From Bacteroidales bacterium (GTDB taxonomy: Bacteria > Bacteroidota > Bacteroidia > Bacteroidales > UBA932): a stretch of DNA of 42,212 bases. Positions 84 through 20,999 of this stretch are shown piece after piece; the stretch's first letter is position 1; the number at the start of each line of letters is the position of its first letter. A model generated the notes under the pieces. It worked only from the letters and a program-made list of their open reading frames with translations, had not been told where the DNA came from and searched no databases. The stretch is taken from the NCBI GenBank assembly GCA_017848635.1, contig JAFIHK010000160.1, positions 1-42,212 on the forward strand. The letters run 5' to 3'. Position numbers and translations under genes: made by a program.

Positions 84-200
84 GAGTGTCCAGTAGAAGC
101 AATTTCTCCCGGCGATATTTACAAAATTGATCCTAACGTTTGTTCTGATTGTGGAACATGTGCCGATGTTTGCCCTGTAGGTGCAATAAGTCAGGCTTAA
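84..200 (+). CDS. 4Fe-4S ferredoxin, C-terminal fragment
   Basis: The reading frame ending at the TAA at 198-200 begins ECPVEAIS, the tail of a first cluster motif. It continues with a complete CxxCxxCxxxCP motif (CSDCGTCADVCP) and ends VGAISQA. This is the layout of a small bacterial 2[4Fe-4S] ferredoxin, a cytoplasmic electron carrier of about 55-60 residues, of which the last 38 or so remain. The 5' part, including the start codon and the first three cysteines of cluster 1, is replaced by the GC-rich sequence at 1-83. A strong terminator follows directly, so it was probably the last or only gene of its transcript. Confidence 0.8.
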   Translation, partial: ECPVEAISPGDIYKIDPNVCSDCGTCADVCPVGAISQA

Positions 201-219
201 TTCTTAATAATAATAAAGA

Positions 220-256
220 GAAGACCGGGCAGAAATTTCTGCCCGGTCTCTTTTTT
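220..256 (+). terminator. Rho-independent terminator after ferredoxin
   Basis: Bases 222-249 form a perfect 14+14 inverted repeat (AGACCGGGCAGAAA and its complement), followed by CTTTTTT at 250-256. It lies 20 bases downstream of the ferredoxin stop codon. The opposite strand lacks an uninterrupted T-run, so its use by the converging fimbrial operon is uncertain. The rest of 201-304 shows nothing recognisable. Confidence 0.9.
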
Positions 257-304: not shown

Positions 305-2455
305 TTAAAATGTAATAGAGTAGTAGCAATTTGTTTGATTATTATACTGATGGTATGGATTAACTATGGCAACAGAAAATTCATAAAAATAACCACTATA
401 TTCCGTAGGAAGATTAGGATCTCTCCACATTATTCCGGGTTCCGGATTCCAATATTCAGTGCCACTTCTCCCAATGATTGATATTAGAGGCATATATCCG
501 GGCAGATGATTGAATGAGTGGTTGGCATATTCCGGGACGATACCATACTCCTCCTCTCCGGTTTCCGAAGATATCCATATTCCCCAGCTCAACTTAATAG
601 GAACACTCTCATATACCATTATTGTCGTACTGCTACTATAACCTGCATAGCTTGCCTTAAGCTTTATGGCACCCCTGTTTGTGAGAGTGTTAATCAAATC
701 TTTAGCGGTAACGGTAGTACTCAATCCCGATGTGCTGCTTAAACTGACAATAGAAGATGGATTATTTCCGGCACTTTCAAGACTCCAGTTTGCTTCGATA
801 TTCTGATTTGCATTCCAAGGGATTGCTCTTACCCTATAAACGCTGCTACCTCTTACCCCGGTCGACCTCCTGTGGTCCGTAATACTACTTTTTGCCGGAA
901 TAGTCACGCCTGTGACAGCATTATAACTCTCAATAATCTCAATTCCTTCACATTCGGCATAATTGACATTTATTACCGATGATGCCGTTTTTTCTGATCC
1001 GTCAGTTGAATATGCCGTAACATAGCAACTACCGGGGTTTACGGGAGTGACAACACCGTTTTGATCCACCGTTGCAATACTATTATCGGAACTTCTCCAC
1101 AGTAAGGTCTTGTTGGCTGCATCCGAAGGTAAAATCCATGCGGTAAGAGTTTTGGTCTCTCCACCATAGGTTAGGTTCAATATTGATGGAGATAAAGAGA
1201 TTGATGTTATATATTTAACAGGATCGCTATATACAACTGAAACCCGCATACTATCCTTTATCCCGGAGCCATCTTTGGCATATGCAAATATTTTACAATC
1301 CCCATATCCGTTTGATGTTACAGTACCGTTCTCAGACACTGAAGCAATCAATGGATTCGATGATAGCCAGGAAACCCTTTTGTCGGCCGCGCTTACCGGA
1401 AGTGCTGTACAGGTAAGAGCAAAGTTCTCATTAAGGTTGGTGAAGCTAAGCGATTCAGGAGAGATCTTCAGCGACTGAACCAAATCGGATAGTCCCTCTC
1501 TCTCAATTCTCCATGAGGTTTCATTTAGTGTGTTTCCCTTTAATTTAATAGTCAGTTTATACCAGGTATTCCGTTTTATGTCGAAATTGGTCGTCTCGTT
1601 ATTTCCTAAAAATATTCTGTACTTAACCGAGCCTGTTTTCTGTGGAGAACGGTATGTTGCCGAAATCTCCGCATAAGTACATAATCTGCCGCTCTCTTCG
1701 GGTAGAACCTTCATTGTCTGGTTACTATTGTTCGGCAATAGTTCTCCCTGCATATTTTCGGCAAGAATCAACTCCTGTGATGATTGGTGAGAGTCAGAGA
1801 GTGTAGGATTCTCTATACTGTAACCCTTCTGGGCTATATCATAAAGAGTTGTTGCTTTATAATCCTCAAACAGGCTGGTTTTAAGTGGAGTGTTTTTGAT
1901 CTCAATTTTAGTAACATCAATTGAAACATTTTTGTCCATTGATGACTTATCCAGTACTACAGTAAGTTTACTGTAACTCCTCTTCATCTCAAGAGGAACT
2001 ATTACTCCGCTGTAAACATATATGTTGCGGCATCTGCCAGTGAAAATCCTCCTGTTCTTAAGCTCTGCAGGGAGAGTAAAAAGAATCTTTTTCTGCTCCA
2101 GCTGCAGATCGCTCATAACATCGGATCCGAACATATTTGAGCCCCAGTTAGCAACCGCATAAACCGAAATATAATCGCAATTAACTGTTATTGAAGGACT
2201 CGAATAAATAGATGGCAGATACATATGTTGAGAGAATCTACCCTCCTGATCAAATATAAAGAGGTTAAGATCATTTATTTCCGACGTAAAATTGTCTTGG
2301 GAAATAACCTTCTCAAATGATGAAGAGTCGGATGAGAGTTTGATAACAATCTTTTTTCCTATAATACCTGACTCCTCCGGTTTTTCATCCTTTGCACAAA
2401 ATGTTAATAGCGGTAATAAGGCTGCAAATATTGCTGCCACAAATGCCTTTTTCAT
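305..2455 (-). CDS. Fimbrial lipoprotein with DUF4906-like region and two Big2 Ig-like domains
   Basis: Predicted surface lipoprotein of 716 residues. A signal peptide ends in the lipobox LLTFC (Cys20). Residues ~30-320 resemble Bacteroidales fimbrillin-like (DUF4906/Mfa-type) proteins, with the recurring pattern of a strand, FDIKRNTWYKLTIKLKG and a short linker at ~291-307. Two tandem Big2 domains follow (~327-408 and ~415-498), each with the SWxSSN/WRSSD, IAxV and NGxVT signatures typical of bacterial Ig-like group 2. The last ~215 residues are unassigned, apparently beta-rich and Ser/Tyr/Asn-rich. It starts two bases after the stop of the upstream fimbrillin gene, so the two are co-transcribed. 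Such accessory subunits sit at the tip or base of the fimbria. An adhesive role is inferred from the Big2 domains. A large adhesin unrelated to fimbriae is the alternative. Confidence 0.75.
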   Translation of the reverse strand: MKKAFVAAIFAALLPLLTFCAKDEKPEESGIIGKKIVIKLSSDSSSFEKVISQDNFTSEINDLNLFIFDQEGRFSQHMYLPSIYSSPSITVNCDYISVYAVANWGSNMFGSDVMSDLQLEQKKILFTLPAELKNRRIFTGRCRNIYVYSGVIVPLEMKRSYSKLTVVLDKSSMDKNVSIDVTKIEIKNTPLKTSLFEDYKATTLYDIAQKGYSIENPTLSDSHQSSQELILAENMQGELLPNNSNQTMKVLPEESGRLCTYAEISATYRSPQKTGSVKYRIFLGNNETTNFDIKRNTWYKLTIKLKGNTLNETSWRIEREGLSDLVQSLKISPESLSFTNLNENFALTCTALPVSAADKRVSWLSSNPLIASVSENGTVTSNGYGDCKIFAYAKDGSGIKDSMRVSVVYSDPVKYITSISLSPSILNLTYGGETKTLTAWILPSDAANKTLLWRSSDNSIATVDQNGVVTPVNPGSCYVTAYSTDGSEKTASSVINVNYAECEGIEIIESYNAVTGVTIPAKSSITDHRRSTGVRGSSVYRVRAIPWNANQNIEANWSLESAGNNPSSIVSLSSTSGLSTTVTAKDLINTLTNRGAIKLKASYAGYSSSTTIMVYESVPIKLSWGIWISSETGEEEYGIVPEYANHSFNHLPGYMPLISIIGRSGTEYWNPEPGIMWRDPNLPTEYSGYFYEFSVAIVNPYHQYNNQTNCYYSITF

Positions 2456-2457
2456 AA

Positions 2458-3528
2458 TCAGAATTCTACTTCGCCCATATTTTGATTGTCCCAGTCGGCG
2501 ATGGTGATTGATGTTATTACAGTCCCTTTCTCTACAAGCATTTCCGGAGATGAACTGCCGGGTCTCTTGATAATTACAGAGATATTATATACAGTATTTC
2601 TCTCTATACCGTTGTTTGTAGTTCCCCCGTATCCATCTCTGTTAATATTAACAGGGTAGTAGTATTTTACTCCGTTAAGCATGGCCTCTATTACAAGTCT
2701 GGTGAACTTTTGCCCTGAAGATTCCTGGGATATAGTATTTTCGTAAGTGTACAGATGGTGTTTTTCACTATAAGGAGTATCTGTTATGCTCCCGGCTATC
2801 TCATCATACACAAGCCCCGAAATTTTACAATCCGAGAAGGATGATGGCTGGAGAGAACCACTGTTTATAAAAAATGGATTTGTGGTTGTACCTCCTTCAA
2901 TGAAGGGCCTGATTTTAGGTACATTTGTCAGATATATTTTTACGCTTGTAAGAGAGATCCCCTGGTATGGAGTATTTGCAAAATCTGTCTTAATACTGTT
3001 TACAACAACTTTGGCAACTACTCTTTTGAGAGTCATATTTATTGTATTTGATTGACTGATTGAGGCATTGCTATATTTTCCGCTCATTGTAAAGTCTTTT
3101 AAACCCTCATTCTTTAAATTTGCCTCTTTGAGAAGAAAATCGGATTCATTAACAATTCCGGTCCATTGAGTGCTATCGTGAGAGTTTGCGACGACATAAA
3201 TATTTTTCAATCCGGTTGTGGATTGAAAGTTTATGTTGTTGAGAAGCTCCTGATTGCTGATTACAAAATATTTATAGGTTTCAAGCGTCTTAGCCGCATC
3301 GTTTTTAAATACAAATACGGCAAGATTATTTATTTGATTGTCATTGGACTGATTATTATGTGCAACTCCTGTCGATTTGGTAAGATTATTGATTCTTAAA
3401 ATGATGTTAGCCTGTTTTACCTTTTCAAGCTCATCCCCTGATGATGTTTCATCTTTTGAACATGAGGGTAGAGCTATTAACGCTAAAAGAGCACCCCACA
3501 ATCCTTTTCTTAAAATTCGCGTTTTCAT
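2458..3528 (-). CDS. FimA/Mfa1-type major fimbrillin lipoprotein
   Basis: Predicted 356-residue lipoprotein with signal peptide and lipobox ALPSC (Cys23). The region after ~40 matches the Bacteroidales fimbrillin plan: an N-terminal domain (VFVFKND..., LKNIYVVANS, MTLKRVVAKVVV), a second beta-sandwich, and the characteristic C-terminal run YYYPVNINRDG, GIERNTVYNISVIIKRPGS, ending with an ITIADWDNQ strand. In characterised members the precursor reaches the outer membrane as a lipoprotein, is cut by a protease, and polymerises by donor-strand exchange. That mechanism is family knowledge, not visible here. It is first in a two-gene operon with the Big2 protein. The upstream gap (3529-3708) is shared with divergent serS. 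I see no exact TAnnTTTG box on this strand, only TATTTTCG at 3591-3584. Confidence 0.8.
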   Translation of the reverse strand: MKTRILRKGLWGALLALIALPSCSKDETSSGDELEKVKQANIILRINNLTKSTGVAHNNQSNDNQINNLAVFVFKNDAAKTLETYKYFVISNQELLNNINFQSTTGLKNIYVVANSHDSTQWTGIVNESDFLLKEANLKNEGLKDFTMSGKYSNASISQSNTINMTLKRVVAKVVVNSIKTDFANTPYQGISLTSVKIYLTNVPKIRPFIEGGTTTNPFFINSGSLQPSSFSDCKISGLVYDEIAGSITDTPYSEKHHLYTYENTISQESSGQKFTRLVIEAMLNGVKYYYPVNINRDGYGGTTNNGIERNTVYNISVIIKRPGSSSPEMLVEKGTVITSITIADWDNQNMGEVEF

Positions 3529-20911: not shown

Positions 20912-20993
20912 GCGGGCATGGCGTAATTGGTAGCCGCGCCAGACTTAGGATCTGGTGCCGTAAGGCGTGGGGGTTCGAGTCCCTTTGCCCGCA
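20912..20993 (+). tRNA. tRNA-Leu (anticodon UAG)
   Basis: An 82-base cloverleaf. The 7-bp acceptor stem GCGGGCA / TGCCCGC is followed by discriminator A. The anticodon stem-loop is CCAGA-CTTAGGA-TCTGG with anticodon TAG, which reads CUA (Leu). The long variable arm (TGCCGTAAGGCG) marks a class II tRNA, and the T arm contains GGTTCGAGTCC. CCA is not encoded. The Leu identity is supported by the long arm, the A discriminator and the anticodon. Confidence 0.96.
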
Positions 20994-20999
20994 CGATAA

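Follow-up and report, generated by a model that had tools for sequence, protein, structure and literature searches.

A fimbrillin and a Big_2-bearing lipoprotein in a Bacteroidales genome: a presumed shaft-tip pair, probably of a reduced type V fimbria

The gene pair and its chromosomal site

The stretch of DNA analysed here, 42,212 nucleotides at full length and called the window below, carries on its minus strand two intact adjacent open reading frames, at 2458-3528 (356 residues, F356) and 305-2455 (716 residues, P716), with a spacer of 2 nt (TGA-TT-ATG as read on that strand). The initial annotation had read them as a FimA/Mfa1-type fimbrillin followed after two bases by a 716-residue lipoprotein, and reading frames, spacer and Pfam agree with this. 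Pfam matches of both proteins were judged against curated cut-offs and all exceed them, hence they are not due to chance. GC content is 37% for F356, 40% for P716 and 40% for the remainder of the window; these close values give no sign of a foreign origin of the pair. Both N-termini, read by eye, are lipoprotein-type signals (..LPSC/SKDE and ..LTFC/AKDE). An acidic stretch following the cysteine is a surface-export signal of Bacteroidetes lipoproteins. The locus displays the following features:

84..200, plus strand: 3' portion of the gene for a 2[4Fe-4S] ferredoxin, flanking the locus and conserved (resembles the ferredoxins at the L073, L118 and L150 site)
221..250, no strand assigned: terminator-like two-way hairpin between the P716 gene and the ferredoxin gene (consensus scan only)
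305..2455, minus strand: P716 lipoprotein, presumed tip adhesin (Pfam, BLASTP, AF2, fold comparison)
308..607, minus strand: orphan C-terminal ~100 residues of P716 (pLDDT 28-37; no relative at its end among 398 genomes)
608..949, minus strand: third, beta-rich domain of P716, residues 503-616 (AF2 block with pLDDT 52-82; weak relatives)
983..1207, minus strand: second Big_2 domain of P716 (PF02368, 56.2 bits; 7quz fold match)
1262..1480, minus strand: first Big_2 domain of P716 (PF02368, 36.9 bits)
1496..2356, minus strand: fimbrillin-fold module of P716, residues 34-320, DUF4906 within (AF2, fold comparison)
2309..2311, minus strand: Lys49 codon of P716, beta1-beta2 loop, FEK/VI (loop alignment)
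2458..3528, minus strand: F356, FimA-type fimbrillin lipoprotein, presumed shaft (Pfam FimA, AF2 model)
2461..2520, minus strand: F356 residues 337-356, presumed donor strand (conserved columns, modelled strand)
3376..3378, minus strand: Lys51 codon of F356, basic site LTK/ST of the beta1-beta2 loop, where a protease presumably cuts (alignments)

Matches to sigma-70-type promoters (17, versus 11.9 ± 3.1 in shuffled sequences) were set aside as evidence.

Gene order in the window is outer-membrane barrel protein, ruvC, serS, F356, P716 and ferredoxin. Three sister genomes of genus g11 (L073, L118 and L150) present the same chromosomal site as TonB-type protein, ruvC, serS, fimbrillin and ferredoxin, the tip gene being absent there and present in the window. 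F356 clusters with these g11 fimbrillins (support 99/96), that of L150 forming a long branch. The window begins about 300 bases beyond the end of the tip gene, yet truncation of the operon by the contig end was ruled out, since the ferredoxin of the sister-genome site follows the tip gene. The locus is thus whole, both conserved edges (serS and ferredoxin) being present as in the sister genomes. In the HGW-Bacteroidetes loci L077 and L079, another four lipoproteins, each some 300 residues long, lie on this serS side together with DUF3575, a TPR protein and a tip gene; the content of this site has therefore changed over time, by loss or gain.

Fold and domains of the two proteins

F356 matches Pfam P_gingi_FimA with 33.7 bits (cut-off 21.4) and, in a sequence search of the PDB, FimA (best E 0.002). 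It is 35-42% identical to fimbrillins of five-gene loci of the same family. Its AF2 model (pLDDT 79.7, pTM 0.77), built on a shallow alignment of 16 sequences, superposes on the FimA1 prepilin 6jzk (Z 22.5, 3.4 A, 286 residues aligned) and on the Parabacteroides structure 3liu (Z 23.5, 3.2 A, 284 residues). According to this model, F356 has the two-domain beta-sandwich fold of a type V pilin. The LPSC motif occupies residues 20-23, with Cys23 invariant in the aligned relatives. At the other end, the alignment displays an invariant Trp346 and a C-terminal Phe, and the model a strand at 337-345; residues 337-356 are presumed to be the donor strand.

The best NCBIfam match of F356 is FimD_tip_adhes, with 112 bits and under its cut-off of 170. 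That the nearest model for a presumed shaft is a tip model counts against the shaft reading.

P716 matches Pfam DUF4906 (39.7 bits, cut-off 27.7), Mfa2 (34.5 bits, cut-off 21.2) and Big_2 in two copies (84.5 bits, cut-off 22.8), which bears out the DUF4906-like fimbrillin region and the two Big2 domains annotated initially. Its AF2 model (mean pLDDT 74.3, pTM 0.50) was also built on a shallow alignment, of 23 sequences, and owing to the low pTM the relative placement of the domains is not fixed by it. Residues 30-320 had been proposed to adopt a fimbrillin fold, and the 31-320 module does model as a fimbrillin, with 4gpv as best match (Z 18.4, 3.7 A, 253 residues). It is followed by the tip Mfa3 (5nf4; Z 17.5, 3.0 A, 241 residues), FimA1 (Z 17.0), Mfa4 (Z 15.1) and the anchor Mfa2 (5nfi; Z 13.0). 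As modelled, the module is nearer to tip and shaft pilins (Mfa3, FimA) than to the anchor Mfa2.

Residues 325-500 form two Big_2 domains modelled with high confidence, the second of which superposes on 7quz (Z 15.3, 0.9 A, 86 residues). The whole protein likewise finds Big_2-type entries in a PDB sequence search (e.g. 7quz, E 7.6e-8), and Foldseek with the P716 model returns mainly generic Ig-chain matches of low TM-score. The C-terminal ~215 residues, first annotated as unassigned, turn out to be of two kinds. Residues ~503-616 are predicted with moderate AF2 confidence as a beta-rich domain, weakly matched in a few relatives (tips of G009 and G044), whereas ~617-716 remain orphan: AF2 gives no model (pLDDT under 40), and this end has no relative among the 398 genomes searched. 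The last 216 residues found no credible sequence match in the PDB (best E 0.055).

Across tips, the C-terminus is less conserved than the N-terminus in 145/207 pairs, which share members and are non-independent. In many tip pairs of the group g22, the C-terminus is equally or more conserved. A 'fast-changing head' as a general rule for tips was dropped, the g22 pairs contradicting it and the overall result being mixed. Could a diversity-generating retroelement be acting on the C-terminal end of P716? In gut metagenomes, proteins with Mfa2 and Big_2 domains are among the targets of such elements (PMC4159848). However, a reverse transcriptase search of the 85%-complete source genome gave no match while three controls were positive, so that this idea is largely refuted and we consider it extremely improbable.

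Relatives and partner genes

When 40 related genomes were searched with P716, its best matches lay within the same Bacteroidales family, and the loci of the nine best-matching genomes (L025-L033) were examined with their surroundings. Most of them have the order DUF3575, TPR protein, fimbrillin, anchor-like lipoprotein (270-320 residues) and P716 relative; the latter carries DUF4906 and usually also Big_2 domains. By BLASTP, P716 matches the last (tip) gene of these loci with E 2e-66 to 3e-24, and the separate anchor genes of the relatives not at all at E 0.01. The gene-order profile included P716, whose score there is consequently circular, but the BLASTP comparison is independent of it. Judging from sequence, the gene of longer operons to which P716 is related is that of the tip, not that of the anchor. 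Its homologues also lie beside fimbrillins, as had been anticipated, in 8/9 of the loci L025-L033, L030 being without fimbrillin. In a further set of 34 loci of named relatives with the P716 module, including Candidatus Cryptobacteroides, Candidatus Coprenecus and HGW-Bacteroidetes genomes, a fimbrillin is nearby in 23, one of these matches being weak (14 bits). At least 7 of the 34 are bare fimbrillin-tip pairs (L075, L080, L081, L082, L084, L088 and L089; L081 begins at a contig end, its upstream side being outside the view).

The initial annotation had left the choice between a tip adhesin and an anchor for P716. As an anchor, P716 would stay uncut at the base, with its adhesin domains near the cell surface. 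Several features speak for this: its second gene position like that of mfa2/fimB, the Pfam Mfa2 match, and the fact that no other anchor was found in the 85%-complete source genome. Moreover, in its beta1-beta2 loop Lys49 stands in a Glu-Lys-Val context instead of the usual [TS][KR], and in the tips of the two-gene loci L027 and L035 the aligned loop lacks any basic residue. On the other hand, relatives of P716 share operons with separate anchors, its modelled fold is closer to Mfa3 and FimA than to Mfa2, its big C-terminal extension is a tip-type layout and Lys49 is still there. On BLASTP, gene order and fold comparison, the anchor was rejected as the main reading and appears distinctly unlikely, while the tip adhesin is retained on account of the relatives' tip genes and the fold.

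With a fimbrillin profile, a match was found in 272/398 genomes of the family (E 1e-8). We assembled 90 loci, namely 80 picked down the listed matches, some being skipped, the nine best-matching ones and the window; 89 have a fimbrillin, L030 being left out of the count. An anchor gene lies downstream in 54 of the 89 (together with a tip in 35/54), the fimbrillin is followed by a tip without anchor in 27, and 8 have neither. Pairs of shaft and tip that lack an anchor gene are thus common in this family (27/89 loci).

The source genome is 85% complete, in 172 contigs. The claim that no other fimbrial subunit genes are present holds for the 34 window reading frames of at least 150 residues searched with Pfam, chosen by size from 38, the remaining ones being overlapping frames. 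It can be extended to the whole 85%-complete genome as regards FimA and Mfa2: a second match to either family was not found, the Mfa2 search returning only P716. Searches of this genome found no DUF3575, no anchor (profile built from the relatives' anchors, which P716 does not match either) and no TPR partner (profile search); the anchor and TPR profiles were positive in G009 and G003, which are weak controls as both genomes are within the profiles. A gingipain family search gave no match in the source genome, the controls being equally empty.

These searches bear on the view that the fimbria is an ordinary one whose anchor and accessory genes are elsewhere, in the missing 15% or too diverged to be detected. 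A distant anchor may indeed be missed in a genome of this completeness and contig number. Among other genomes with two-gene loci, an anchor match exists elsewhere in G005, G194 and five of g22 (G021, G272, G087, G133 and G363), and in G005 and G194 it is paired with a TPR gene. Against this view stand the empty searches of the source genome, P716 itself aside, and G055, 98% complete, whose two-gene locus comes without anchor or full-length TPR match. G252 also has no anchor match, and G200 only one of 15 bits. We hold this alternative to be very unlikely.

The cleavage loop and a model of assembly

According to Hall et al. (PMC5789003), shafts and tips that are cut have a long flexible beta1-beta2 loop, whereas that of the uncut anchor Mfa2 is rigid. 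This loop measures 21-37 residues in the 54 fimbrillins whose loci bear an anchor gene, and the basic-site pattern is present there in its loose form in 54/54 and in its strict form in 47/54. By contrast, the loop of the g22 two-gene fimbrillins is of 10-15 residues in 21/21, the strict pattern being found in 2/21. The loose pattern is also present in 6/21 of these short loops, so that the contrast resides in the length of the loop and not in the site pattern. The remaining six two-gene loci (the window; L027, L035 and L038; L072; L146) have loops of 20-23 residues, with the loose pattern in 6/6. As g22 is a single clade in the tree (support 100/100), its loop shortening is perhaps one event, and the counts are taken without correction for kinship. 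The shortened loop suggests that in this clade the shaft became the anchor. F356 itself has a loop of 22 residues with Lys51 as basic site, as in anchor-bearing loci, and is on these grounds predicted to be cuttable.

This contrast raises another possibility, that there is no fibre: F356 would be an uncut, lipid-held base exchanging one strand with P716, which makes a two-protein surface adhesin. The short g22 loops are what would be expected of uncut shafts, and the anchor Mfa2 has a rigid uncut loop (PMC5789003). Yet F356, unlike g22, keeps the long loop and Lys51, g22 is one clade and perhaps one event, and the g22 genomes checked have an anchor elsewhere (5/5). For the window, such an adhesin seems unlikely.

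We favour the reading, which we regard as probable, that the locus is a reduced type V fimbria of the FimA/Mfa1 kind, composed of one shaft (F356) and one tip adhesin (P716) assembled by protease-triggered strand exchange. The 'minimal fimbria' of the initial annotation is supported, and the locus keeps only the presumed shaft and tip. In type V assembly as reviewed in PMC7616799, strands are exchanged under the action of a protease, FimB tethers the fibre and FimCDE sit at its tip. In the proposed model, F356 and P716 would reach the surface as lipoproteins, and a trypsin-like protease would cut F356 after Lys51, and perhaps P716 after Lys49, freeing the first strand. An adjacent shaft subunit would then fill the emptied groove with its C-terminal strand, and P716 would cap the far end of the fibre; there the Big_2 pair would act as a spacer for a putative binding head formed by the orphan C-terminal end. 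The anchorless fibre would probably be held by the lipid of the last uncut shaft subunit, or be easily shed. According to PMC12785474, P. gingivalis ATCC 33277 is FimB-negative and is the strain in which long FimA fimbriae are studied; thus an anchor seems dispensable for polymerisation. The same paper reports accessory tip proteins to be dispensable for polymerisation and cites a title on assembly by fimA alone.

A more speculative reading, which we hold to be less likely than not, is that type V fimbriae can dispense with a dedicated anchor, which would have been lost more than once in one Bacteroidales family, a remaining subunit taking the base. In g22 the shortened shaft loop would probably leave the subunit uncut, while the lineage of the window retained the site and may form a fibre that grows freely or is shed. 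How type V fimbriae start, are tethered and terminate is still debated. A system that in nature consists of a shaft and a tip gene alone would be the most compact one for testing strand exchange and anchoring. Whether shafts differ from anchors in having their first strand cut can be tested directly and cheaply with the contrast in loop length that separates loci having an anchor gene from those lacking one.

Neither type V fimbriae nor tips extended by C-terminal domains are new. The locus shares with the Mfa1 (Mfa1-5) and FimA (FimA-E) pili of P. gingivalis the two-domain beta-sandwich lipoprotein pilins, a basic site after beta1, here presumed to be cleaved, the C-terminal Trp strand and a tip gene in the operon. 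It differs from them by one tip gene instead of three, by the lack of an anchor gene with two genes in all, and by a tip extended with Big_2 domains. With the five-gene loci of the same family (e.g. L025, L028 and L029) it has in common a related fimbrillin and a tip combining fimbrillin module and Big_2, but not DUF3575, the TPR protein or the anchor. In the literature searched, which covered few subscription papers, we found no description of a shaft-tip pair without an anchor. Ffp1 of Porphyromonas is a type V fimbrillin for which no accessory proteins are known (PMC11316588); unlike F356, it has no tip partner. The nearest printed two-gene case that we found, also in PMC11316588, is B. thetaiotaomicron mfa1-mfa2, likewise a type V locus, which pairs a shaft with an anchor where the present locus pairs a presumed shaft with a presumed tip.

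Loci without an anchor gene

In the anchorless loci of the g22 clade (L114-L133), which have only a shaft and a tip gene, the beta1-beta2 loop of the shaft, the loop with the presumed protease site in the shaft of the window, is shortened to 10-15 residues. Many tip C-termini in these loci are conserved at least as well as the N-terminal module, a feature that distinguishes them from many anchor-bearing loci.

Tip relatives in other settings and possible exchange of a fimbrial block

At the serS site in HGW-Bacteroidetes (L077, L079), four lipoproteins of ~300 aa are followed by DUF3575, TPR and tip genes. A close relative of F356, the fimbrillin of the window, is absent from both loci; they represent a different fimbrial set having the tip type in common with the window locus. 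Another tip relative stops directly after the fimbrillin module and is devoid of any adhesin domain:

L084:8845-9849, tip relative of 334 aa only

Two related genomes, L047 and L053, share 6.2 kb at 96.8% identity starting inside the tip gene, whereas identity is much lower for their fimbrillins (67%), anchors (54%) and tip N-terminal halves (47%). The fimbrial block looks to have been exchanged between near relatives.

Contig start and a gene start in the window

Roughly the first 83 positions of the window have a GC content of 70%, against ~40% for the remainder; by eye, they read as a piece of a dehydrogenase-like protein joined to the ferredoxin gene. The contig end here is probably chimeric, an assembly artefact.

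Further along, a tRNA gene overlaps the listed start (20927) of the trigger-factor ORF, whose real start therefore probably lies downstream:

20912-20994, tRNA-Leu
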